44,767 nt of DNA from Bacillota bacterium (GTDB lineage: Bacteria; Bacillota; Limnochordia; DTU080), in assembly GCA_012840225.1 (NCBI GenBank), contig DULU01000110.1, forward strand, positions 1-44,767, in the 5' to 3' direction. A program made the translations under genes and the position numbers. Positions 7,236-44,276 of the stretch are shown in pieces. Numbering within the stretch: position 1 is the stretch's first letter; each line of letters starts with the position of its first letter. The notes under the pieces are model-generated. The model searched no databases, was not told the origin of the DNA, and was given only the letters and a program-made list of their open reading frames with translations.

Positions 7236-10061
7236 TTACAGCTCCACGTGATAAAGAGTGGTGCCTTCCTGATCTTTGATCGTAAGTCTCAGCCCGCTCT
7301 CAGAGAAAAGGAAGCCATCCGTGCGCTTAACTCGTCCGGGATCATTTTTATCCGGGATGCTGATGCTCAGCTTATCCCTTTCGCCTGCGTCGGTACCGGA
7401 GAAGGTTACCGTGAAGCCAGCGCCGCCACCTTGATCCTTTGCCGGCTGAGGCCGCAACACCGTATAGAAGGAGACCGCCGCCACCGGTTCCTTGGTGCTT
7501 ATCCGCAGCTTGATGGAGCTGCCCCAGTTGCCTTCATTGGGGTCGCCGGGATAATACGAATACCCTTTATGCATTATGCCCTGGCCGACATATGACTCCG
7601 TGGGAGTTGTCGAGAATGAGTAAATCTGCAAACCAGCCCGCGGGCGGGTGAACACCCACTGTCCGGCGGCTTGTTGCACGAGCCGGCCCTGACCGTCGCC
7701 GTTGTTCATATGCCAATGCAGGTCGACGATCTCGGCACTCCGGGCAGCTATCTCATCCCACACCACGAAATAGCCGGGATCCTTGACAAAGAGCACATGC
7801 CGCCGCACTTTTTCCGGATTGTTCACATAGCTGGGTGCGGCCTCGCTTACCAGGTATTCGACCCGGTCGTCGGTATATGTCTTGATGATATTGGCCACCG
7901 GGGTTTTGCTTTGATCGGCCTGGTTGAAGGTGATGGTGTTGTGGCTGCTGGTTTTCAGATCCCAACTGCTGCGCAGGGGACTGCGATAACTGGCCCGTCC
8001 GGGAGCGACCAGCAGATATTCCCCGCCGGCGAAGAGGACCAGCGCATTGCGGTCCGGCCGGTCATGGGAATACTGGGTCCGGCCGGCACCTCCGCTCCTC
8101 AAGCCCAGCACCACGCCATTCTCCTCCCAGGAGGAGCGGATCACGCCCACACCGTTGTCGAAGGCGCGCTTCAGCGGCAGGCGGCGCTCCTCCGGGCTGA
8201 CCGCTGCCGGCACCTGGTCCTGGCACGCCCCCAGCACTGCCAACAGCAGCCAGTCGGCATCGGCGGCGGCCGTTCCAGAACCATGATATCGCTCCGTCAG
8301 CCAGATACCGAGGCCGTCCTGCAGCACCGCCGACAATAAATAGGTGACAATATAGTCGGGATTGGTGGTGTAATCATCGTCGCCAAAATTCAGCCTGCCG
8401 GGCTGGTATTTACCATCGCCCTCGCCGGCGACAAAGGCAAAGTAGTAAACCATCCAGGTCAAGCTGTCCTTCAGCCCTGATTGCTTTAGGAGTGGGGTGG
8501 TGCGCTCCAAGCCCATCGCCAGGAGGCCGGGGATCAGACTGCGTATCCCGTAATTGAAATAGCCGATCTGCTCACTGTAGCTGCCGTCGGCTTCCACCAG
8601 TTCCAGATATTCGCCCAATTTGCTCTCCGCCAAGGCCATAGCCTGGGAATCCCTCAATACCTTACCGGCAATATAGGCCCCGGACCCCATCACTGCCGTC
8701 CAATTGTTGCGTGTGGTATTTCTCTCCAACCACCGCAGGCACGGCTCCAGCCCCTTCATCCGCAGAGCGTGGCGGATGGAGGCCAGCTCTTCTTCAGTGA
8801 ACAGATCCGGCGCCCAGGCCAGCACCATGGACAACCCACTGGTAAGATGAGCGGTTTCCAGACCTCCGACAGGCATAGTCGGATCGAAGCGGCGCAGTTC
8901 GGCATGGATCCAAAATTCCATAGGCCGTGCAATGGCATCCAACACAGCCGCCCGCAGGAACTTGCCGGTCGCCGCATCCCTCGTCAGCAGATATACCAGG
9001 GCAAAATCCGGCAAGCCGCCGATTAGATCATATATATAAGGTTGTTTGCCGCCGGGAAAGGCTCCTTGCATCAAGGCTCTCAGCACTTTGGTGCGCAAGC
9101 CTTCCCAAACGCCGGCCACCAAAGGGTTGGTGCGGACGAGCTGCGGCAAGGCCGACAATTGCTCTCTGCTGAAGAAGAGAGGCTCATCTATTTTCTCCAG
9201 TATCAGCTCCGGCTGTTGCAAGGTAAGCTTCACCTCACTGAAAGCTCTGGTGATCGGTATGGGAGGAAAACTGAACGGTGCATCGCTCGCCGCCGTCTCC
9301 ATCGCGCCACTACCTGTCTCAGGCTCAACTGGGCGGGTGATGATCAGATGCCGGACATAAATCTCTACATCGGAAGGTGTTGTGCCGATTATTTGCACGT
9401 TTGACGCTATAGTATTATTTTTCCAGTCCATACCGGCAAAACCAGGTACAGGAGAATCATCAACCCATATATTGGTGATTCTCTTCCGGTCAGCGTCCAG
9501 GGCGAATTTGATGCGCACAAACCGGCCGGAAGGAAATTCAAATACTTTTTTAGGTTGATTGCTCGGATCCATGAGGCAGGCTTCGTGCCATCCCCCATCT
9601 CCAGTCGAGCTACCTCGTACTCTGAAGTCTAGAACATTTCCGACAAGTAAAAAGATCGCCCAGCCGGCGCCGGTTTGATCGATGCCGGCTTCGAATTCTA
9701 CATAATAGGTGCCGGTGATCTGTTTGGGGTCTATGGCGAGAGGCAGCCGTAAAATGCGTGCCTCACCCGCAACATTTTCGATGCGGAGAGATTGACCGGA
9801 CTCTCCCAAAGCCCCCGTCACGATAGAGAAATGGCTGCGATGGCCCTCGCTGATGACCCATCCGGAAGGGAGAGGGGCAAAGGGATCATCGGCCTGGCTC
9901 CAGTCGACTTTAAAAACTTCGATCATACCGGCATTCTCTTTGCTTTGCTCCACAGCCGCCGCCGTGAGTGGTGAAGCGAACCCCCCCGGCAAGCCCGCTC
10001 CGGCCATACAAAAGGCCAGCACTAATAAAGCGGATCGAAAAATCTTTTTCCCAACCTTCAT
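7236..10061 (-). CDS. Secreted heparinase II/III-type polysaccharide lyase (PL12/PL15/PL17-like)
   Basis: 941 residues. Signal peptide 1-36 (hydrophobic ALLVLAFCMAGAGL). Residues ~45-245 form a jelly-roll of the LamG/DUF1080 kind. Residues ~290-610 look like the alpha/alpha toroid of heparinase II/III and alginate lyases, with an Asn in RNNW (452-454) and Tyr/Glu in SYSEQIGYFNY (494-504). A beta-sandwich follows from ~640, containing SHDRPDRN (665-672), ALVLFAGGEYLLVAPG and VDLHWHMN. In the family, Asn/His/Tyr residues at these places drive beta-elimination of uronate-containing polymers, leaving unsaturated ends. It lies 40 bases behind SBP2, probably in one operon. GGGAGGGGG precedes the ATG. 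The substrate (alginate, heparin-like or other) is undetermined. Confidence 0.85.
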   Translation of the reverse strand: MKVGKKIFRSALLVLAFCMAGAGLPGGFASPLTAAAVEQSKENAGMIEVFKVDWSQADDPFAPLPSGWVISEGHRSHFSIVTGALGESGQSLRIENVAGEARILRLPLAIDPKQITGTYYVEFEAGIDQTGAGWAIFLLVGNVLDFRVRGSSTGDGGWHEACLMDPSNQPKKVFEFPSGRFVRIKFALDADRKRITNIWVDDSPVPGFAGMDWKNNTIASNVQIIGTTPSDVEIYVRHLIITRPVEPETGSGAMETAASDAPFSFPPIPITRAFSEVKLTLQQPELILEKIDEPLFFSREQLSALPQLVRTNPLVAGVWEGLRTKVLRALMQGAFPGGKQPYIYDLIGGLPDFALVYLLTRDAATGKFLRAAVLDAIARPMEFWIHAELRRFDPTMPVGGLETAHLTSGLSMVLAWAPDLFTEEELASIRHALRMKGLEPCLRWLERNTTRNNWTAVMGSGAYIAGKVLRDSQAMALAESKLGEYLELVEADGSYSEQIGYFNYGIRSLIPGLLAMGLERTTPLLKQSGLKDSLTWMVYYFAFVAGEGDGKYQPGRLNFGDDDYTTNPDYIVTYLLSAVLQDGLGIWLTERYHGSGTAAADADWLLLAVLGACQDQVPAAVSPEERRLPLKRAFDNGVGVIRSSWEENGVVLGLRSGGAGRTQYSHDRPDRNALVLFAGGEYLLVAPGRASYRSPLRSSWDLKTSSHNTITFNQADQSKTPVANIIKTYTDDRVEYLVSEAAPSYVNNPEKVRRHVLFVKDPGYFVVWDEIAARSAEIVDLHWHMNNGDGQGRLVQQAAGQWVFTRPRAGLQIYSFSTTPTESYVGQGIMHKGYSYYPGDPNEGNWGSSIKLRISTKEPVAAVSFYTVLRPQPAKDQGGGAGFTVTFSGTDAGERDKLSISIPDKNDPGRVKRTDGFLFSESGLRLTIKDQEGTTLYHVEL

Positions 10062-26221: not shown

Positions 26222-29068
26222 TTAACAATACGCTTTTACCAAAAGTGTCTTCCCTCGCGCCTCTGCCGGCAGTTGCACTTCCAGCGTTCCGGGATAACGC
26301 TCCAGGTAGGGTGTGGGAACATCATCGATGGTGACCTGATAGGAGGAAGCCGCAGGTTTCAGGGTGACGATGGCCACCGGCTTGTGTCTTGGCTGACCGT
26401 ATATGGAGAGCCGCGCCTTTAGCCGGCTGTAATCGGCAGCGACCGTGCATGTTTCGATGCGCAGGTTGTGCCCGCCGGTGAGGCGTCCGGGTCGGTGGTA
26501 GGCGGAGTACCAGCAGAGAACAGGGGTAGACAGCCCGCTGAAATGATGCCAACCGCCTCCCCGCCCCGTCTTGACGTTGATATGCTCAAAGCAGGCGTAG
26601 GCCTCCCCCACTTCTCTCTGCCAGGTGGCCAGAGCGGTGGCGGCTATCCTGGCCGCCTCATCACCCCTGCCGCAATCCAGGAAAGCTTTCCAGATAAACC
26701 ACTGATGCGGAAACCAGACACTACCATTCCAATAACCGTCGTCACGATAATATGGTGCCCGGCGGTCGACAGTGGAGATGCCGTAGGGTGTCCAAAGCCC
26801 TTCTGCACTCATGATGTGCTCGACCAGGCGTTTTTCCTGTTCCGCAGTGCAGATGTCTGCAATGAGAGGAGTCACTCCGTCGAGGCCCATGTTGAAGTTG
26901 ACGCCGCTCTCATGCCGCAAAATGGAGCATGGCCGGCCTGCTGCATCATGGCATACATAACTGTAGTAACCGCTCTCCTCATCCCAGGACCACTTTTGCA
27001 AGGCGGCTGTAAACTGTTCGATGTCTTCCTCATATTCGCCGCCGTCCAGACCCAGGGCGGCCGCTAGGGTGTGCAGCATCTTGGCTGTGCGTATGGCATG
27101 GGCCGTATTGACTGCGGGGGCAACCCGCCCTGTCAGGCGGGCGGCATGCACATGAGCCTGAGGTGGATAATCATCCCAGCCGCCGCTGTTATAAAAGTAA
27201 TCCCAGGTTCTGAGCAGATGGGATTTCAGGTTGTTGGTGGTCGAGCTGCCGTAGCGCCCGACCAGAAAGCGATGGTATTGCTGCAGCCTGGGGTAATAAT
27301 ATGCCGCCAACTCCCCGGATCCGGTGCGGTTCCAGAGTTCCCAGAAGAGGTAGAACTGGGTGGGGAGAGGAGTGCCGTGATGAATGAAAGCCGCTCCGGA
27401 CTCGCCCGGCGGTGTGAGATAAGCATTGAGAATGTCCAAAGCCCGCTCTGGATCCAGCTCGCACAGACCTAAGCCGATAAACCCGGCATCCCAGGTATAG
27501 AGGGTTTCGTAAAAACGGCCGGGGGTGTAGTGCTTAATGTAACGGCCCCGGGTGCGCACCGGATATATAGCATTGGTCAGGGTGGTGGCAGCCATCCTCT
27601 CCTGGCTGAAGAGATAGGCCTCACCGGCCGGATTGCTCCTCAGGTCGACCTTCCGGGATCGGGCCTTCTCATTGATAAGGCGCAACCGCTGCCGGGCGGG
27701 AAAGTGGTCCGGGGTGGGAGCATGGCTTAGAGCTGGGGCAAATTCGGCTAGCCGCCGGCGTACCTCATCCGGCTCGCCCGTGCAGAGCAGGCCGTAGACT
27801 GTGCTGGTGGTCCCTGGAGCCAGAATGATGGGGCGCAGGCAGATGTTGGTGAAGTGTCCGAAGCCATTGCCGCGGAAGGTGGGGTTGAGCTGGTGCAATG
27901 CGCCTATGCACATCCGGTGCGCCCAGGGTTCCAGGGAGTCGTCGTATATATGGCGCACTTCAAAAGGCTGGTTTTCCCAGGCGATACCATAGACGGCATC
28001 GACATGCTCGTAGCGGAGAATTAGAGAATGAGGAGCCGGACCGGGTAGGAACTCCGGTACAGGATTCCAGTTTACATGCGGAAAAGCCAAATCCTTGCCG
28101 ACCGCCTGAGACAGCAGGGCCATCCCGTCCAGCATAATTTCGGCGCCGCCTGCCGAGGTGAGCCGCAGGTCGTATGTCCCCCGCTTCACCTCGCCGATAG
28201 CCACCACCAACGTCACCGGCTCCTCACCAGTCTGCGTCACTGTCTTCTCGCCGGCCAACGTCGCCGCCACCGGTCCCGTCACTTCCCCGGCCACCCCGGC
28301 GCCGCTGCCGAAGTGGACTTCCCTCTCCAGGTCCAGGAGACCGCTCAGATACATCTTCAGGGTTTGCCCGGGAGCCATAAGATAGCGGAAGACCAGAACA
28401 GCGTCCTTTATATCGGCCGGCACCGCCAGGCGATAGGCGACCCAGTCGCCCCTGCCCGCTCCGAACCCTCGCCCCAGGGCCGTACCGCCGACAAAATGAT
28501 GCAGGCGCATTTCGCCACGCAGGTGGCCATCGTAGACCAAGTCCGCCCGGTGGTCGGGTTTGCTGAAATGAATGTCCACATAATCGAGAGCATCGATCCA
28601 CAAGGCCCCCTCCGGCAGAACGACCCGGCAGGGTTTTAATATCTCCGTCGCCTGAGGACGAAGCGGTGGGAAGTTGAGGGAGGCGGCATATTGCAGCGCC
28701 AGCGGCTGGGTCAACCAGGTGTTGTTGACGAGATGAGCACAGATCAGGACGCTCTCTTCATCCAGGCGGCAGTAGTCGACATCGCAATAGAGCCGATCCT
28801 TCCAAATCAATTCATGGCGGAAACGGTAATATGAGAGATCCGGCGCAGCTTCCCAGGGATAGACGCCGATATCTCGCTTGGCCACAGGCACCACGGCCGT
28901 CCGGCGATATTGCCCCGCAAAACAGCTGAAATCAAAGCGTATTCCCGCCGCCATGTCCGGCACATGGGAAATGCCCAGATAACTCAGGGAATATGGCCCC
29001 CAGGAGGATAAGCGCAGATCATGGGAGTTCCGCAATGCGGCAAGGCTATCGGCCCAGCGTGTCACCAT
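26222..29068 (-). CDS. GH63-like alpha/alpha-barrel glycoside hydrolase
   Basis: 948 residues with no signal peptide, so cytoplasmic. Residues 1-~440 are beta-rich. Residues ~480-870 form an alpha/alpha toroid of the GH63/MGH1 kind: TWDAGF (525-530) with the Asp in the place of the general acid, GWDDYPPQ (630-637), YWNGSVWFPHQW (779-790), and CFEHINVKTG (826-835) with Glu828 as likely base. A small beta domain closes the protein. GH63 enzymes are inverting alpha-glucosidases; bacterial members act on varied alpha-glycosides. It lies between two paralogous binding proteins and downstream of a promoter with the GCGA/TCGC palindrome. The substrate is unknown. Confidence 0.8.
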   Translation of the reverse strand: MVTRWADSLAALRNSHDLRLSSWGPYSLSYLGISHVPDMAAGIRFDFSCFAGQYRRTAVVPVAKRDIGVYPWEAAPDLSYYRFRHELIWKDRLYCDVDYCRLDEESVLICAHLVNNTWLTQPLALQYAASLNFPPLRPQATEILKPCRVVLPEGALWIDALDYVDIHFSKPDHRADLVYDGHLRGEMRLHHFVGGTALGRGFGAGRGDWVAYRLAVPADIKDAVLVFRYLMAPGQTLKMYLSGLLDLEREVHFGSGAGVAGEVTGPVAATLAGEKTVTQTGEEPVTLVVAIGEVKRGTYDLRLTSAGGAEIMLDGMALLSQAVGKDLAFPHVNWNPVPEFLPGPAPHSLILRYEHVDAVYGIAWENQPFEVRHIYDDSLEPWAHRMCIGALHQLNPTFRGNGFGHFTNICLRPIILAPGTTSTVYGLLCTGEPDEVRRRLAEFAPALSHAPTPDHFPARQRLRLINEKARSRKVDLRSNPAGEAYLFSQERMAATTLTNAIYPVRTRGRYIKHYTPGRFYETLYTWDAGFIGLGLCELDPERALDILNAYLTPPGESGAAFIHHGTPLPTQFYLFWELWNRTGSGELAAYYYPRLQQYHRFLVGRYGSSTTNNLKSHLLRTWDYFYNSGGWDDYPPQAHVHAARLTGRVAPAVNTAHAIRTAKMLHTLAAALGLDGGEYEEDIEQFTAALQKWSWDEESGYYSYVCHDAAGRPCSILRHESGVNFNMGLDGVTPLIADICTAEQEKRLVEHIMSAEGLWTPYGISTVDRRAPYYRDDGYWNGSVWFPHQWFIWKAFLDCGRGDEAARIAATALATWQREVGEAYACFEHINVKTGRGGGWHHFSGLSTPVLCWYSAYHRPGRLTGGHNLRIETCTVAADYSRLKARLSIYGQPRHKPVAIVTLKPAASSYQVTIDDVPTPYLERYPGTLEVQLPAEARGKTLLVKAYC

Positions 29069-34158: not shown

Positions 34159-35532
34159 TTGTCCATCGTGTCCGACAAACCGAACATCCCGAACATGCCG
34201 AATATCCTCTTTATTCTCGCCGATGATCTGGGTTGGAACGATGTCGGCTACCATGGTTCGCCGATCCGTACACCCAACATCGACCGGTTGGTAGCTACAG
34301 GTGTCGAGCTGGACTACCATTATGTATGCCCGGTTTGTACCCCGACTCGTACCGCTCTCCTGACCGGACGGTACCCGGGGCGTTTCGGCAAGCACGCCAC
34401 CGTCCCCAGCAACGATCCTATCCTCCCCGATCGCTATGAAACCCTGGCCGGAGCCCTGCGTCGGGCGGGCTACGATACGGGACTGTTCGGTAAATGGCAC
34501 CTGGGTTCACGCAGTGAATATGGCCCGAATGCCTACGGCTTCAACACCGCCTACGGCAGCCTGGCCGGCGGGGTGGATCCATACAATCACTGTTATAAGC
34601 GCGGCCCCTATATGAAGACCTGGCATCGCAACGGCAGCCTCATCGACGAACCTGGCCATGTTACGGATCTGATCGCCGGGGAAGCCTGCCGCTGGATCGC
34701 CGCTCGTTCCGACACTTGCAACACTTCCGACACTTCCGGCACCCCCAGATCCCCCTGGTTTTGCTATGTTCCCTTTACCGCCGTACATATCCCGGTCGAT
34801 GTGCCGAGCGCTTGGCTGGACAAGTATGCAGACAAGAAATATGACGACGACCCGGCACGGGATATGTCATATAAACGTTATGCCGCCTACACCAGCCACA
34901 TGGATGCCGCCGTCGGCCGCCTGATCGATACTTTGAAAGAACATAACCAGTTTCATAACACCATCGTGGTCTTTGCCTCGGACAATGGCGCCACCATGCA
35001 GGTCAGGGGCGATCTGGATAACTATCCCGGCTGGCACTGGCCTGCTCCCCGCCTCGGTAGCAATGCTCCTTTGAGAGGCCAAAAAGCGCAGCTATATGAA
35101 GGCGGGATCCGCACGCCGGCAGTTATCTCCTGGCCCGGCATTTTGTCCCCCGGTAAGTGCTCGGTGCCGATTCACGTGGTAGACTGGATGCCGACCTTCA
35201 CCAAGCTGGTCGGTTATTGCCCGGAGAGCGATCCCCAGTGGGATGGAATGGATATCTGGCCGGTGATTGCCGGTTCCCCCACCGCCTCCCCCGCCTCCAG
35301 ATCATTCTATTGGAACCTCCGGGGTACCCAATTCGCCGTGCGCCGGGGGCCGTGGAAATTGATCTTGGATGAGGCGGCGGAAAAATGCGAGCTGTTTAAC
35401 CTGGAGGCCGATCCCCATGAGCAAAACGAGCTCAGCGCGGCACTTCCGGAGATTGTCGGGCAACTGAAAGATGTGATCGCCGCCGAGCGGCAAAAGGACG
35501 ATAGCTCCAAGCGCCCGGATGCTCCCAATTGA
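34159..35532 (+). CDS. Type I sulfatase (Cys-type, formylglycine-dependent)
   Basis: 457 residues. ILFILADDLGWNDVGYHGSP (16-35) gives the metal-binding Asp pair, and C60-T-P-T-R64 is the C-x-P-x-R motif whose cysteine is turned into formylglycine. GKWHLG (111-116), ASDNGA (~275), GQKAQLYEGGIRTPAVISWP split near 310-325, and GPWKLI follow. It would remove sulfate esters from sugars. No signal peptide is seen, so it should act inside on imported oligosaccharides. Start TTG 34159 with GGAGG ten bases before. A nine-base repeat (34711-34745) encodes an inserted DTCNTSDTSGTP. No activating enzyme gene (anSME or FGE) is in the window. Confidence 0.9.
   Translation: MSIVSDKPNIPNMPNILFILADDLGWNDVGYHGSPIRTPNIDRLVATGVELDYHYVCPVCTPTRTALLTGRYPGRFGKHATVPSNDPILPDRYETLAGALRRAGYDTGLFGKWHLGSRSEYGPNAYGFNTAYGSLAGGVDPYNHCYKRGPYMKTWHRNGSLIDEPGHVTDLIAGEACRWIAARSDTCNTSDTSGTPRSPWFCYVPFTAVHIPVDVPSAWLDKYADKKYDDDPARDMSYKRYAAYTSHMDAAVGRLIDTLKEHNQFHNTIVVFASDNGATMQVRGDLDNYPGWHWPAPRLGSNAPLRGQKAQLYEGGIRTPAVISWPGILSPGKCSVPIHVVDWMPTFTKLVGYCPESDPQWDGMDIWPVIAGSPTASPASRSFYWNLRGTQFAVRRGPWKLILDEAAEKCELFNLEADPHEQNELSAALPEIVGQLKDVIAAERQKDDSSKRPDAPN
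34711..34745 (+). repeat. In-frame nine-base repeat in the sulfatase
   Basis: Repeats of ACACTTCCG-like units, encoding D-T-x-N/D/G-T-S. A similar small repeat (CCGAACATC/CCGAACATG/CCGAATATC) lies at 34181-34207 near the start of the gene. Confidence 0.6.
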
Positions 35533-36540: not shown

Positions 36541-36580
36541 CTGCCGGCGACGCCTGTTTAGGCGCCGCCGGTATTTTTAT
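36541..36580. terminator. Bidirectional terminator between methyltransferase and selenoprotein glutaredoxin
   Basis: CCGGCG-A-CGCC-TGTTTA-GGCG-C-CGCCGG (36544-36571) is followed by TATTTTTATT on the plus strand and by AGTTTTCTT on the minus strand. It serves both convergent genes; on the minus strand the stem includes the last codons and stop of the glutaredoxin. Confidence 0.85.
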
Positions 36581-36809
36581 TGATCAGTTGCAACAACTTG
36601 GCCTGGTCAAAGCCGCGGACCACTTCGCCGTCGATCACGGTGACGGGCACGCCCATGCCCGCATTCAGGCTGAAAAATTCATTCAAAGCTTCCCGGTCCA
36701 CATCTACCTTGCGTTCGACATATGCGACGTTGTGGCGTGAAAGAAACTCTTTCACCAAGGTGCAATACGGTCAGGTTTGCGTGGTGTAGACTTTTACATC
36801 CATTGCCAC
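36558..36809 (-). CDS. Glutaredoxin-like selenoprotein (UGA read as selenocysteine in U-P-Y-C)
   Basis: The frame runs from GTG 36809 (GGAGGAGG eight bases before it) or ATG 36803 through an in-frame TGA at 36771-36773 to TAA at 36558. From the ATG it reads VKVYTTQT-U-PYCTLVKEFL, where U is the TGA. It stands exactly where glutaredoxins and NrdH proteins have the first Cys of C-P-Y-C, preceded by the usual beta strand. The rest is a complete glutaredoxin fold: the cis-proline GVPVTVIDG and VVRGFDQAKL. About 81-83 residues, the normal length. A hairpin with SECIS properties begins 15 bases after the TGA. It would reduce disulfides with a selenolate nucleophile. The alternative, a pseudogene by one point mutation, is possible but the hairpin argues against it. 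Ordinary gene callers would start it at GTG 36758 and lose the active site. Confidence 0.8.
36737..36755 (-). promoter_or_regulatory. Candidate bacterial SECIS element
   Basis: Minus-strand hairpin GTGAAAG-AGTTT-CTTTCAC: perfect 7-bp stem, 5-nt loop, with G as second loop base. The loop G is 23 nt behind the UGA. These values fit the published bacterial SECIS rules (G among the first two loop bases, 16-37 nt from UGA). Confidence 0.7.
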
Positions 36810-37048
36810 GGCCAACGCCTCCTCCTCTTTTGCCTTTTTCCCTTTCCGTTACTTGGCCTGCTTTTGTCAATATTCACCCTTGCTGCCGCCTTTATTCGCT
36901 ACCTTTTCTCCGGCACCCTTCCCATCCCCTCCACATATGCAACATCCGGAAAGGAAGTTGATCATCTCTGCTGGAAATAATACGGGAACTACCTTGACGG
37001 AAACTATCTTGGCGGTAAGTCCTGTGAATTGGAGAAATATAGAAGCTC

Positions 37049-37599: not shown

Positions 37600-38718
37600 A
37601 TGCGCATCGGTCTTATCGGCGCATCCGGCCATTATGCGGCTGTTTTGAAAATATTGGCGGAAGAGATGCAGGGCTCGGGCTCAAACCAGTCGGAGGCGGG
37701 TAGAAGTCCGGCGGGACGCTCCGGTCGCCGGGGACACTCCGGGCCGGCTTATCTGGCGGCCATCGCCATGACCCATGAGACGGAGAAGGCCAAAATAGAG
37801 AGTGTACGCCGCCACCCGGCTTATCTAAAAGGCAAGACGGTGGAATATGATTCGGCTCAAACCATGTTGGCGCAGGCTGATCTGGATGCGGTCATCGTCA
37901 ATCCGCCATACGGCTGGACGGCTTCCTACATACTCCAAGCCCTGGAGAGAGGGATAGCTGTTTACAGCGAAAAGCCCTTAGCCACCAAGCTGGCCGACCT
38001 GGAGCTAATTCAGAAAAAGGCGCATCAGACCGCCACCCCTCTGGTAGCGATGTTTGAGTTGAGAGCCCATCCCGTAACAGCCACAGCGGCCCGGCTGGTA
38101 GCCGAAGGAGCCATCGGCCGACCCGTGCTGGCTTTCGGGCAGAAATCATATAAGCTCAATCCCGACGGAAGGCCGATCTGGTATGCCGACAGGGAGTTGT
38201 TCGGCGGCACCATCCCCTGGGTGGCCATTCACGCCATCGATTGGACGCGCTTTATCACCGGGTTGGAATTTGCCCAGGTATATGCCAGCGAAATATCTGT
38301 GGCCGCCGGCCGGCTCGCTCCTATCGCCACCGCCGGAGCTATCCACTTTACCTTCAGGCAAGGCGGCACTGCGGCGATCACCTTCGACTACCTGCGCCCT
38401 GCAGAAGCGGAAACCCACGGCGACGACCGCTTCCGCATTGCCGGCACGGAAGGGGTGCTCGAAGGCTCCCTGCCCAGGAACGAACTCCTCCTGATTCGCC
38501 GCGGTCAAGGTACCATCCAGCCGCCGCTTGATGAAACCAAGCCGCTTTTCCGCCGCTTTCTCGATGCTCTGTACGGCAAGACTCTACACGGCAAGGCGGA
38601 GATGCCGATGACGGCAGATGATGCTATAGCCAGCACACGGGCGGCTCTCTGGGCGCAGAAGGCAGCCGACGAAGGAAGCCTGCTGGATATTGCGGAAGGC
38701 AAAGATGTGGTCGGCTGA
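37600..38718 (+). CDS. Gfo/Idh/MocA-family oxidoreductase
   Basis: 372 residues. The nucleotide-binding site is GLIGASGHYAAVLKI (4-18), the catalytic lysine motif EKP (124-126), and IPWVAIHAIDWTRFITGLEF holds the catalytic His region. Residues 24-49 are an inserted low-complexity stretch (GSGSNQSEAGRSPAGRSGRR) in the place of the first helix-strand turn. It oxidises or reduces a sugar or derivative with NAD(P). CTGGAGGGAT precedes the ATG. It forms a run with the GNAT gene and the next Gfo gene. Confidence 0.88.
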   Translation: MRIGLIGASGHYAAVLKILAEEMQGSGSNQSEAGRSPAGRSGRRGHSGPAYLAAIAMTHETEKAKIESVRRHPAYLKGKTVEYDSAQTMLAQADLDAVIVNPPYGWTASYILQALERGIAVYSEKPLATKLADLELIQKKAHQTATPLVAMFELRAHPVTATAARLVAEGAIGRPVLAFGQKSYKLNPDGRPIWYADRELFGGTIPWVAIHAIDWTRFITGLEFAQVYASEISVAAGRLAPIATAGAIHFTFRQGGTAAITFDYLRPAEAETHGDDRFRIAGTEGVLEGSLPRNELLLIRRGQGTIQPPLDETKPLFRRFLDALYGKTLHGKAEMPMTADDAIASTRAALWAQKAADEGSLLDIAEGKDVVG

Positions 38719-38780
38719 CCAAAGCCTTGGCCATGATGCCTTGACCATGAAGCCTTGACCGCGAAAGGAGGCAATAGTCC

Positions 38781-39788
38781 ATGCGTTTGATACAGGTCGG
38801 CGTGCGCAGAATGGGCAACCATTGGGTTAAAGTGGGGCTGAATAATGCAGATGCGGAAATGGTGGGCTATGTCGATATCCTGCCCGAGCATCTTGATCTG
38901 CTCAGCCGGGAGCACGGCATCAGCAAGGACATTTGTTACACAGACCTGCAGACCGCCCTCAATGAGCAACGGCCGGACGGAGTGATCATTGTCACTCCAC
39001 CCCAATTTCATGCCGAACAGATTATCATGGCGCTGGAGGCCGGTTGTCACGTCCTCACGGAAAAACCTCTGGCCGACACCTGGGATAACTGCCGGCAGGT
39101 TGCAGAAGCAGCAAAAAAGACCGGCCGGGTGGTAATGGTGGCGCAAAACTACCGTTATTCACCTGTGGCCCAGTCCCTTTACCATTACATCCAGCAGGGC
39201 AAGATCGGGGTGCCGGGGGAGGTGACGCTTCGCTTCTTCCGCGGCCCCCATTTCGGCGGTTTTCGGGAAGAAATGCCGTATCCGCTCATCATCGACATGT
39301 CCATCCATCACTATGATCTGATGAGATATCTGCTGCAAATCGAACCGGTCGCCATCACCGGCCGCAGCTGGAACCCGCCCTGGAGCTGGTTCCGGGGCGA
39401 TGCCTCCTCGATGGTTTTCATCGAAGCCGCCCTGAAAAGAGATCCCGCCCGCCGGGTATATATCACCTACACCGCCAGCTGGTGCAGCAAAGGCGGAACC
39501 ACGCCCTGGAACGGCGAATGGCTGATCTTCGGCGATGAAGGCTGCCTCAAGCTGGAAAATGATCATCTATATATAAAAGCCGACGATCAGCAGCCGTGGG
39601 AGGAACTGCCTATACAGCCTATGGAAAGAACCGGGCAGGATTATTTGCTCCATGAATTCATCTCCGCCGTCAAACAGGGCTGTCAACCCGAAACCAATTG
39701 CTTCGACAACATTAAGTCGATTGAAATGGTTTTCAAGACGGTGGAAAGTTTCGAGACGGGCCGGAGAGTATTGCTGGCGGGTGAATAG
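38781..39788 (+). CDS. Gfo/Idh/MocA-family oxidoreductase
   Basis: 335 residues. The N-terminal Rossmann motif is degenerate (LIQVGVRRMGNHWVKVGL) with no G-x-G-x-x-G, while VTPPQFHAEQI (71-81) and EKPLADTWDNC (94-104, catalytic Lys95) are intact, and PLIIDMSIHHYDLMRYLL gives the C-terminal catalytic His region. AAAGGAGG eight bases before the ATG. The gene ends four bases before the convergent enolase-superfamily gene. Role in sugar or sugar-acid oxidation inferred. Confidence 0.88.
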   Translation: MRLIQVGVRRMGNHWVKVGLNNADAEMVGYVDILPEHLDLLSREHGISKDICYTDLQTALNEQRPDGVIIVTPPQFHAEQIIMALEAGCHVLTEKPLADTWDNCRQVAEAAKKTGRVVMVAQNYRYSPVAQSLYHYIQQGKIGVPGEVTLRFFRGPHFGGFREEMPYPLIIDMSIHHYDLMRYLLQIEPVAITGRSWNPPWSWFRGDASSMVFIEAALKRDPARRVYITYTASWCSKGGTTPWNGEWLIFGDEGCLKLENDHLYIKADDQQPWEELPIQPMERTGQDYLLHEFISAVKQGCQPETNCFDNIKSIEMVFKTVESFETGRRVLLAGE

Positions 39789-39792
39789 CTTT

Positions 39793-41133
39793 CTACTCCC
39801 CGTAGCCAAGCCCCGGATGCCGGAGGACGGAGGTGTCGATGCAGCCGTTTTTCACCGTAAACAGCTCCGGCAGCTTCTCCTGCCATACTTTGTTGGCTGC
39901 CGGCACAAACTGGCGGGCATTGCCTTCCACCGCCGCCACACCGGGGATATGGGCGGCCAGCCCGGCCGACCAGGCAAATGCCCGGCCCGGGCAGGTTAAA
40001 TCCTGAACACATAAGAACATACCGAATTTCTGGGCGGCCGCCGCCATCAGGAGCGATTCCGTCTGCCCTTTGCACGCCTTTAATGCCACCCCTGAATAAC
40101 CCAGCTCACGGGCACGGAGCAAGGTGGCATAGTCGGTGAGCGATTCATCGATCACCACCGGCTTTATTGCTGCCACCTCATGCATGGCAAAAGCCTGCGG
40201 ACCGAATAGATCACGGTCGGTAGGCTGTTCGATATACTGAATACGGTCGAAAGCCGCCTCCGACTGCCGGCGCACCCCTTCCAGGCACGACAGGAGGTAG
40301 CCGACATCCCGGCATTTCTCATTGAAATCGAGAGAATAGCGCCATTTTATTTCCGGATTGGTCAGTGTCGCCACCCGATCGACAGCTACCACCCGCCCAA
40401 TATCCCAGTCGAGATCCTCGCCATTCAGTTTTATTTTCAGGTGAGTCAGTCCATCCCGGCGTATCCACTCATCAAGGCTCTCCGGATATTCATCTCCCAC
40501 CGGATTGACCACCTCGGCCGGCGTGAGCGGGTCAAGAGCACCGACCAAGTGATATAGCGGCAGTTGCCTGACCGGCGTCCGCCTGGTATAGCGGTCCAAA
40601 AATTCGCCCTTGAACCGGTCGTCCAGATAATGGCTTAAATCCTTCTTTATATATTCGGCGCTGTAGCAATTATAAACCGAACGACCCAGCAGACGGCCAT
40701 AGGCATCATGAACGGCGGCATCAAGGGGGCTGACGGCTACCATCATCGCCATTTTGGGGATGGGACGGCTCAATTTCAGCTCCGCCTGCAGTCGGGCGAT
40801 AACCTGCATACCTATTCTGTTTATTTCCTCGCCGATCTCCATGGGATGGCCCGGCTCAATTTGATCCAGCTGGCGGGCCACCCGTCCGGCTATGGTCAGG
40901 AGGGTGGAGTATTTGACATCCATCGGCACTTCAGGATCCGGCCAGGACCAGTTGGTACCCATGGTCATGGAACCGGTTCCACCGGCCGAACCGCCCAGTT
41001 TATCCCTGACATGTACTATGGCGTTAAGAATGGTTGTCCCTGTGCCGACCCGTCCCCCGAATTTGATCGGTGTGCGATAATCATACTTCTCGCTGCTTAA
41101 AGCCACATCCAGTATTTTGATATCGGTCTTCAT
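39793..41133 (-). CDS. Enolase-superfamily (mandelate racemase/muconate lactonising enzyme) protein
   Basis: 446 residues from the third ATG (41133), which is served by GAGGATGG; the frame starts at 41154. It has the capping domain (to ~140) and then the barrel with K-x-K (233/235, THLKIKLNG), metal ligands Asp269 (SLDFNE), Glu302 (YIEQP) and Asp329/Glu330 (VIDES), and a Lys (352 or 355) in ALKACKGQ. This K-x-K/D/E/D/K set matches the muconate-lactonising/dipeptide-epimerase/syn-dehydratase group. It probably dehydrates or epimerises an acid sugar or a related acid; the substrate cannot be read. It follows the PL6 lyase gene by only two bases, so the two are one transcription unit. Confidence 0.85.
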   Translation of the reverse strand: MKTDIKILDVALSSEKYDYRTPIKFGGRVGTGTTILNAIVHVRDKLGGSAGGTGSMTMGTNWSWPDPEVPMDVKYSTLLTIAGRVARQLDQIEPGHPMEIGEEINRIGMQVIARLQAELKLSRPIPKMAMMVAVSPLDAAVHDAYGRLLGRSVYNCYSAEYIKKDLSHYLDDRFKGEFLDRYTRRTPVRQLPLYHLVGALDPLTPAEVVNPVGDEYPESLDEWIRRDGLTHLKIKLNGEDLDWDIGRVVAVDRVATLTNPEIKWRYSLDFNEKCRDVGYLLSCLEGVRRQSEAAFDRIQYIEQPTDRDLFGPQAFAMHEVAAIKPVVIDESLTDYATLLRARELGYSGVALKACKGQTESLLMAAAAQKFGMFLCVQDLTCPGRAFAWSAGLAAHIPGVAAVEGNARQFVPAANKVWQEKLPELFTVKNGCIDTSVLRHPGLGYGE

Positions 41134-41156
41134 CCAGGCTACCACCATCCTCATCT

Positions 41157-44100
41157 TTACATATCAGCATACCGACCTATCAGTTTCACCTGGCCGATTT
41201 GCAGGACATCAGCCTCTTCGCCTGCGGCTTGGTCGGCTTGGTCGGCGGTCAGAGCCAGGCGGAAATATGCTATCTTTTCTGCCTCGGGCAACTGGGCTGT
41301 CAGCAGCACCTTATACCATCCGTCGCCTGCAGGTTGGCTCGCAGGTGAAAGTGAACCGGCACCTTCCCCGGCTTCCCCTTCCCCGGGTCCAATAGACTCA
41401 ATCCGATAACCCACACCTTCCCAAGCAACATTATCTGCAGAAATGCTCAGTATGAGGTTTCCGGCGATCATCTCTGTATCTAATTTACGGGCATATACAG
41501 TGACCCTGGCTTCGATGAGAAGAGGCGTTTCCCACACCAGATACTCATATTCAGTTCCGCCGGAAAAGGCACCTCCCGGCGCGGCAGCCTGCGCCCGGCG
41601 GCGACCGGCATCGGGCGCCAAGGTAAGACGATCCGCGTCCCCATGGAATTTATCCATGTCTGTAGTATCGTAACGCCAGCCTTCCGACATGAAGATAGTC
41701 TTGGATCTATCGATCTTTCCCATAAATCCCCAGTCTATTGGCGGCAGAATATCATCCAGTATTTCCCAGTAGTTATCGATCTCCACAACCCTGGTGCTTT
41801 CCGCCACTGCTCCATCCCTGCTCTCCGCCACAACTTTGAGATTATATGACCGATCCGGCCACTGCCTGGAATCCACGGTCAACCGGATGGTAGCAGAGGG
41901 GGAGGAAAGTGCAGCTGAGGAAGTTGTGGAAACGGAATGTATCAGCACATCATCCAGGTAAACCTCGGCTCTCTTCAGATCCGCTTCCGGAAAACCAATC
42001 TCGATTTCCACAGGCAAATTACCCTGCACTTTTGTCATAAGCTCGGGCTTATTGATCATTACATTAGAAACTTTAAAGTCCACAGTGCGGATGGAGATCG
42101 AACGGCTGTGGCCCTCTCCCCGACGCCAACCTGCAGCTGTCCCCAACTGGGCATCAGTCTCAGGCTCAGTCTCCGCCTCAGCCTCAGCTTCAGCAATCAC
42201 AGTCAATACATGCTCTCCATCGCTGAGCTCGCCCCTATTGATATAGAATCCTGCCAAACTCTCCAGACCGCCCCGATACACTTCCTGCCCATCCACCAGC
42301 AGGCGCAAGCTTATATCCGACCCTATATTGCCGGTCTTGGTCACCCCGATGTCCACCGCAATGGGACCCCACCATCCTGCCTGCTTATCATAGTGGCCCA
42401 ACAGGTCGATCTTGGTGATGTAAACAGCAGGAGCGTCGGGAGAAAACGGCATAGACGGCGGCGCATTAGGTCCTACTTCCTCCGCCGTCAGAGGACCGCG
42501 CAAAAGCGGACGGCCATCATTTTCAAAAGCGCCCACATCAGGCCGGCCATCTCTGGGCTTGCCTTCTATATCCTTATCAAGGCAAAATGCCGGGAACAAC
42601 GACGGCTCATACGCCGCATCAATCGCCGGGCTGTCCTCGCCTATATAGTGCACGCCCATCAACAATCCCCCGGTCATCGAGACCAGCCTGGGATCGACGA
42701 TGCGGTTCCCCCTGTTGTCGTTCGCCGTCAAATCGATGCCGATAGCCGTATTCACCCTGGTATTCATCATCATATTACCTATCCAGGTGATATCGGCCGC
42801 TTTCGCGACATTCACCAGGTTCCCCAGCTTGTTGGAGATGATCAGGTTGTTGGCAATAACCGTGTCGACGGCTGAATAGGGATATCTCGAGTCGGAGAGT
42901 ATGGCAATGCTGCTGGCATTGTTGACAAAGGTATTATGGATCACCAAGAGCCGCTCCACCCGCCAGTAGTCCAACACTTGCTGCTGATAGGCGTTGTCGG
43001 CCACCCCGATAGACAGAGCCGACCGGGAATCGGTGCCGGCCAAATTTTCGAAATGGTTGTTATATATTTTATGGCCTCTACCATACACCCGGATTCCGCC
43101 CGTGCTGGGCTTATTGTTGCCGAGGAAAAAGTTGCCGTAGGCCTGGTTGTCATTCCCATGGCGGAAGGTAACCGCACCTTCGCATTCCAGGAAGGTATTA
43201 TATCTGATGTGATTGCCGCCGCTTTTCACCGTGATGATTTCGATTTCACCGTTGCAGCGCTCAAATAGATTATGTTCGATAATGGTGAAAGCGTGCGAGC
43301 GGGAAACGGTGCTGGTTCCGATGCGAATGGCTTCCATACCATTATGGTTTACCGACTTAACATCCCTGAAGTGATTGCGGTCCACCCGGGTATGTTGGGC
43401 GACTTGCACATTGTCGCCGTTTATGGAGATAAAGTTGCCGAGGCGCCGTTTCTGCTCGAATAGGTTATGGTCGATGCGGTTATAATCGGCCGCCGTTCCG
43501 CTAATATCCACCCAATGGCGGCTCTCCAGCACCGCCGGCGATTCCACCAAAGCAAAATGGTTACGGGTCACACGGCAATGGCTGCTGCTCCTGAGCCTCA
43601 AGCCGGGAGTGTTATATTCATCGCTCGCCGTGAATTTCAACCCGGATATTACCACGTAGCTGGATTCTTGCACGATGAAAGACGATTTACCGCCTATGAC
43701 CGCTTTTCCCTGGTTTTGCGCCCGAATGATCAGCGGCGCAGATTTAGTCGCTCTCACACCACGGACCAGATAGGTGCCACCGTATTCATATATGCCGTCG
43801 GCCAGCTCTATAATCTGTCCAGGAGCGGCGGCAGCAAGAGCTTCCCTCAACTCCGCACCATTGGTCACAACTACCCGTACGGCATCAGCCGGCGGCACAA
43901 CTATGTCTGGATCCAACACCGGGTCATAATCCCAGGTAGTTCCATCCGCCGCTTTGCCCGGCAGCCTGATAAATGGCTCGGCAGAAGCCGGTGCTGCGTT
44001 GGCAGCGTGGACGGATTGGGCGGCCTGAGCAGCCTGGGACGAGGCAAAAATGCCAAAACCAAAGCCAAAACACATTAGGCTAAATGTGACGAGGCACAAA

Positions 44101-44219
44101 AGAGACATAAACAGCAGTGTCCTCCAACCCGTCCAGCCGACTACGTCGAATATACCTTTTGCGCAGATCATTCTTTTTTCTTTTCCGCATTTCTCGCTAA
44201 CCAAACGTCGGCTTCCCAT
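41157..44219 (-). CDS. Secreted PL6-family polysaccharide lyase (chondroitinase B / alginate lyase type)
   Basis: 1020 residues from ATG 44219, set by GGAGGGG seven bases before; an upstream ATG exists at 44276. Residues ~24-65 hold the membrane/signal segment (TLLFMSLLCLVTFSLMCFGF) ending ASSQAAQA. The parallel beta-helix (~110-500) has the PL6 signatures NGMEAIRIG (293-301), IITVKSGGNHIRYNTFLE (catalytic Lys332) and TFRHGNDNQAYGNFFLGN (Arg353). Beta-sandwich regions follow, with an Ig-like region at ~590-830 and a C-terminal carbohydrate-binding-like domain. PL6 enzymes cut alginate or dermatan sulfate by beta-elimination; with the sulfatase nearby, a sulfated polymer is possible. A repeat EAEAEAETEPETD (42145-42200) is inserted. 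The frame ends one codon before the enolase-family gene. Confidence 0.9.
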   Translation of the reverse strand: MGSRRLVSEKCGKEKRMICAKGIFDVVGWTGWRTLLFMSLLCLVTFSLMCFGFGFGIFASSQAAQAAQSVHAANAAPASAEPFIRLPGKAADGTTWDYDPVLDPDIVVPPADAVRVVVTNGAELREALAAAAPGQIIELADGIYEYGGTYLVRGVRATKSAPLIIRAQNQGKAVIGGKSSFIVQESSYVVISGLKFTASDEYNTPGLRLRSSSHCRVTRNHFALVESPAVLESRHWVDISGTAADYNRIDHNLFEQKRRLGNFISINGDNVQVAQHTRVDRNHFRDVKSVNHNGMEAIRIGTSTVSRSHAFTIIEHNLFERCNGEIEIITVKSGGNHIRYNTFLECEGAVTFRHGNDNQAYGNFFLGNNKPSTGGIRVYGRGHKIYNNHFENLAGTDSRSALSIGVADNAYQQQVLDYWRVERLLVIHNTFVNNASSIAILSDSRYPYSAVDTVIANNLIISNKLGNLVNVAKAADITWIGNMMMNTRVNTAIGIDLTANDNRGNRIVDPRLVSMTGGLLMGVHYIGEDSPAIDAAYEPSLFPAFCLDKDIEGKPRDGRPDVGAFENDGRPLLRGPLTAEEVGPNAPPSMPFSPDAPAVYITKIDLLGHYDKQAGWWGPIAVDIGVTKTGNIGSDISLRLLVDGQEVYRGGLESLAGFYINRGELSDGEHVLTVIAEAEAEAETEPETDAQLGTAAGWRRGEGHSRSISIRTVDFKVSNVMINKPELMTKVQGNLPVEIEIGFPEADLKRAEVYLDDVLIHSVSTTSSAALSSPSATIRLTVDSRQWPDRSYNLKVVAESRDGAVAESTRVVEIDNYWEILDDILPPIDWGFMGKIDRSKTIFMSEGWRYDTTDMDKFHGDADRLTLAPDAGRRRAQAAAPGGAFSGGTEYEYLVWETPLLIEARVTVYARKLDTEMIAGNLILSISADNVAWEGVGYRIESIGPGEGEAGEGAGSLSPASQPAGDGWYKVLLTAQLPEAEKIAYFRLALTADQADQAAGEEADVLQIGQVKLIGRYADM
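42145..42200 (-). repeat. In-frame Glu/Ala repeat in the PL6 lyase
   Basis: Six-base units of the form GAGGCT/GAAGCT/GAGACT, giving alternating E and A/T. It lies between two beta-rich domains and looks like a linker. Confidence 0.7.
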
Positions 44220-44276
44220 TCGCCATCCCCTCCTATAGAAACGTGGCAGAGCCATATTTGTGCGTTTCGCCTGCAA

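Follow-up and report, generated by a model that had tools for sequence, protein, structure and literature searches.

A glutaredoxin reading frame lies on the minus strand of the window, which is the whole 44,767-nt stretch of DNA analyzed. The frame runs from 36809 or 36803 to 36558 and is open except for one TGA (36773-36771). The features of the locus are as follows.

36558..36809, minus strand: coding region of a predicted selenocysteine (Sec) glutaredoxin with TGA read as Sec, defined by the frame and a Glutaredoxin match; stop codon TAA at 36560-36558
36809 (GTG) and 36803 (alternative ATG), minus strand: start codons, giving a product of 81-83 residues
36771..36773, minus strand: in-frame TGA (UGA), putative Sec codon at the first Cys of C-P-Y-C, placed by alignment to Cys homologues
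36737..36755, minus strand: SECIS-like hairpin GUGAAAGA-GUU-UCUUUCAC, inside the coding region, 15 nt after the UGA
36558..36758, minus strand: 66-residue open reading frame with a TTG start, lacking the active site, expected from a standard gene caller instead of the full gene
36818..36826, minus strand: Shine-Dalgarno-like AGGAGGAGG, 8 nt upstream of GTG 36809 and 14 nt upstream of ATG 36803
36571-36544, minus strand: intrinsic-terminator-like hairpin with a 12-bp stem and the T-rich tail CAGTTTTCTT, overlapping the stop codon and lying between convergent genes

With TGA read as Sec, the translation is (VA)MDVKVYTTQT-U-PYCTLVKEFLSRHNVAYVERKVDVDREALNEFFSLNAGMGVPVTVIDGEVVRGFDQAKLLQLINKNTGGA, in which U is residue 13 when counted from the GTG start. 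The active site of the readthrough protein is UPYC, in which the second Cys is retained. The protein matches the Pfam Glutaredoxin model PF00462 with an E-value of 9e-15 and 55 bits (cut-off 22.9), and its residues 5-64 cover the whole model (positions 1-60). In sequence, the solved structures nearest to it are chains of glutaredoxins (7c10_A, E 5e-16). In every aligned Cys homologue, the first Cys of CPYC sits at the TGA of the window's gene. An earlier note on this DNA had described a glutaredoxin frame broken only at this Cys and had proposed the alignment to Cys homologues; the single TGA, the full-length model match and the alignment all agree with it. The note had also foreseen the 66-residue fragment, which corresponds to the TTG frame, and a ribosome site, which is AGGAGGAGG. 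The closer spacing of this element to GTG 36809 makes that codon the likelier start. The same note had given the gene its own shared terminator. A terminator is present, and sharing with the convergent gene is plausible, as the opposite strand also carries a T-run. An Rfam search of the window at gathering thresholds returned no match.

The hairpin behind the UGA can be read in two ways, with 8 bp and the loop GUU, or with 7 bp and the loop AGUUU (GUGAAAG-AGUUU-CUUUCAC). The latter is the form described in the earlier note, with G as the second loop base. The folding program adds an eighth pair, A-U, which produces the GUU triloop at −8.7 kcal/mol. A published model of bacterial SECIS elements specifies a loop of 3-9 nt, an upper stem of 4-16 bp, a G within the first two loop positions, a UGA-to-loop spacing of 16-37 nt and an energy of −7.5 kcal/mol or lower (PMC13188914). 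The window hairpin lies within all of these limits, with the loop 23 (or 22) nt after the UGA and G first (or second) in the loop, in keeping with its earlier description as a fitting SECIS. The loop AGUUU also matches the preferred pattern N1-G-[G/U]-N-N2 with N1 and N2 paired.

Such a structure is infrequent in the window. A Watson-Crick stem of at least 7 bp with the required spacing and loop G follows 22 of 4037 TG[ACT] sites in any frame (~0.5%). When the same 20 residues were recoded synonymously with the window's own codon usage (200,000 draws), stems of at least 7 bp arose in 0.075% and stems of at least 8 bp in 0.027%. The folding energy is unremarkable against shuffled sequences (z −0.9 to −1.6). 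The SECIS assignment thus rests on geometry and conservation, and the weak energy z-scores were excluded from the evidence.

Across 399 genomes of the phylum, a protein search blind to the hairpin returned many homologues with one TGA. In-frame TAG codons in some matches proved to be normal terminal stops and not recoding. The comparison set, drawn from the phylum-wide and class searches, consists of 21 distinct Sec forms and 32 Cys forms. A core stem of at least 6 bp (G-U allowed) with G at the loop start is found in 20/21 Sec forms vs 2/32 Cys forms. The Leu codon within the stem is CTT in all 21 Sec forms vs 4 of the 32 Cys forms (Fisher p 4e-11, kinship ignored); CTT makes up only 51 of the 655 Leu codons of the window. 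The stem contains a G-U pair in L054, L055 and L049, and the core is altered in L066. Among the Cys forms, L043 and L189 retain the whole core hairpin, and L051 retains the stem with the loop G changed to A. These SECIS-like hairpins are likely relics of recent Sec-to-Cys changes.

Scanning about 85,000 named species genomes with a sequence pattern yielded at least 118 matching stretches, at least 104 of which are Sec-glutaredoxins by the score limit (at least 103 distinct). Those listed include Moorella thermoacetica, Moorella mulderi, Pelotomaculum, Desulfosporosinus and Geosporobacter, and come from Bacillota, Desulfobacterota, many Chloroflexota (Dehalococcoidia) and other groups. All 103 of the Sec-glutaredoxin matches listed use GAG for Glu, though the pattern permitted GAA, so that the loop G never varies among them. 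The second stem pair covaries among the matches listed (C-G 49, U-A 21, crossed classes 9; p 8e-11, kinship ignored). TTC replaces TTT in 21/103 of the matches listed, and the 5-nt loop form is retained; the C breaks the eighth pair, and these genes are accordingly scored 0 by a count that assumes a 3-nt loop. At the level of sequence, the comparative evidence for a Sec-glutaredoxin is very strong.

The comparison also bears on the idea that the TGA arose by faulty sequencing or assembly from the Cys codon of an ordinary glutaredoxin. The closest relative (G004, of the same order; 63% identity) reads TGC at this codon, as an error would have it. However, the window has the full hairpin and G004 lacks it, more than 100 homologues carry TGA at this position, and an error would not produce a hairpin that tracks the TGA state. 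With so many homologues sharing both the codon and the conserved hairpin, an error is very unlikely.

About a dozen of the listed pattern matches belong to a different UPxC protein, and another three are chance matches to unrelated sequences; almost all of these fall below the score limit, and they were kept out of the counts. The second protein type, FGSxxUPxCxPxKE(F/Y)LS...GxVGxPCIVxNxGE, has the UPxC motif and the KE(F/Y)LS stretch in common with the Sec-glutaredoxins. It is represented by L072, L074, L083, L089, L116, L128, L137, L145, L168, L174 and L187 and occurs mostly in Clostridia and Tissierellia.

The genome that contains the window (G000; 3.55 Mb, 154 contigs, 96.6% complete, 4.3% contamination) encodes the Sec machinery, on contigs other than the window's. 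The proposal in the earlier note depended on selA, selB, selC (tRNA-Sec) and selD, and all four are present. The tRNA-Sec has the anticodon UCA. On one contig, selA (543 bits) immediately precedes selB (300 bits, with a further match in the C-terminal part), and selD (375 bits) lies on another. The selD gene (L019 1387-2541) itself contains one in-frame TGA at the catalytic site, in AGUAGK, followed by a 7-bp SECIS-like hairpin, GGACCUG-GCG-CAGGUCC, whose loop begins with G. SelB (L010 343-2583) contains a proline/serine-rich insert and a C-terminal tandem repeat, TVRAEA, in about six copies. A second SelB match (C102) is EF-Tu rather than another SelB. Two genomes of the same family (G001 and G002) give marginal tRNA-Sec scores near the cut-off and contain no glutaredoxin of this type. 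G004 possesses a clear tRNA-Sec together with the Cys form of the gene.

These data also weigh on the reading of the gene as a pseudogene, or of the UGA as a true stop with only the fragment made. A simple scan found no sigma-70-like promoter for the gene, which fits this reading. Against this, the only stop falls exactly at the catalytic residue, the rest of the frame is intact and accompanied by a ribosome site and a terminator, and the Sec machinery is present in the genome. We regard a pseudogene or a true stop as highly improbable.

From the frame, codon, hairpin, machinery and conservation, we infer, with a probability of about 0.96, that the gene encodes a small YruB/NrdH-like glutaredoxin in which Sec, inserted via SelB and the SECIS, would be the nucleophilic active-site residue (U-P-Y-C). 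SelA would make Sec-tRNA(Sec) with selenophosphate from SelD. SelB would bind the hairpin shortly downstream of the UGA and deliver the Sec-tRNA(Sec), and the ribosome would read the UGA as Sec. The product is predicted to be a thiol (selenol)-disulfide oxidoreductase. Its presumed reductant could be the true thioredoxin reductase of the genome (401 bits), which may recycle it; its substrates are likewise a matter of prediction.

Experimental verification is listed for a UxxC Sec-glutaredoxin (PMC13188914). The Sec-glutaredoxin (Grx, UxxC, PF00462) of Clostridium (Alkaliphilus) oremlandii OhILAs has been studied experimentally, and others are listed from Moorella thermoacetica, Geobacter sulfurreducens and Alkaliphilus metalliredigenes (PMC13188914, PMC1794560), that of M. 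thermoacetica as early as 2006 (PMC1794560). Like the known proteins, the window's predicted product belongs to the glutaredoxin family and has a UxxC motif with Sec first, and a SECIS hairpin closely follows the UGA. The gene recovered from M. thermoacetica (L148) is another of this kind. In view of the verified UxxC protein and the M. thermoacetica listing, the window's gene would be a further member of a known selenoprotein type. A literature search for Limnochordia named with selenocysteine returned nothing useful. The C. oremlandii protein has an MsrA-reducing role (PMC4479559). The window's gene is from another species, and its genome gave no MsrA match in a search whose positive controls worked; a Grx-MsrA partnership is therefore not expected there.

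The best NCBIfam match is TIGR02196 (GlrX_YruB), at 79.4 bits across almost all 74 positions of the model. As this is below the curated cut-off of 88.55, with Sec replacing Cys, TIGR02196 is taken as the nearest named subfamily and membership is not assigned. NF041212 (Uxx_star) and UXX-star families 1-3 are glutaredoxin-like selenoproteins with Sec at the same place as in the window's protein. The protein scores 51.8 against NF041212 (cut-off 66) and 29-32 against the UXX-star families (NF041114, NF041211 and NF047338; cut-offs 72-100). It keeps the second Cys (UxxC), whereas UXX-star family 1 is described as UxxT (PMC13188914).

The relation between Sec and Cys forms was traced in a tree of 93 rows, which requires at least six Sec/Cys changes on well-supported branches and nine overall. 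The window's gene pairs with the Cys form of G004 (96/82), and the neighboring rows are Cys forms. The Cys in this closest relative indicates that Sec is not essential to the fold. Because the alignment has few columns and the branches are long, the tree leaves the direction of change open. A Cys form may have turned to Sec only in this lineage, which would be compatible with a Sec-glutaredoxin. The position beside Cys forms agrees with such a recent change, as does the observation that the window's gene is the only Sec form among 17 matches in its class. However, Sec forms from other classes and phyla have a hairpin nearly identical to that of the window, and in G004 a portion of the core, GAGTTTCTC, survives, as would be expected of a decayed relic. 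We consider a recent change to Sec rather unlikely. The standard type of the window hairpin and the partial core in G004 favor old descent of the Sec form and a loss of Sec in G004.

More broadly, GAAAGAGUWUCUUUC may represent one nearly fixed SECIS core, embedded in the K-E-F/Y-L-S codons across several phyla and fossil in some Cys relatives, and thus a record of repeated Sec/Cys switching. By the same account, to which we give even odds, the Sec machinery of the window's genome may serve few proteins, since neither TIGR01591 (formate dehydrogenase alpha) nor MsrA found a match there. The TIGR01591 result, obtained with a single FdhA model, suggests that the genome lacks what is usually the chief client of bacterial Sec systems. 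A GrdB search of the genome gave no match, and none in its control either.

The Sec reading corrects a gene that standard annotation would shorten to a fragment without an active site. The 21 Sec and 32 Cys forms, drawn regardless of the hairpin, together with the at least 103 named Sec forms, constitute a natural experiment on the retention and loss of SECIS elements upon Sec-Cys exchange. The earlier note had called Sec-glutaredoxins known but rare. They are known, as the verified listing attests, and not rare: with at least 104 clear matches listed from about 85,000 species genomes, the type is common in anaerobic bacteria. The counts suggest that anaerobes carry Sec-glutaredoxins far more widely than the few examples in early surveys would indicate.

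Elsewhere on the contig, polysaccharide-degradation genes are located at 7236-10061, 26222-29068, 34159-35532 and 39793-44276. They include heparinase II/III-like, sulfatase, MGH1/GH63-related glycoside hydrolase, enolase-superfamily and chondroitinase B-like genes. Gfo/Idh dehydrogenases are encoded at 37600-39788 of the window.
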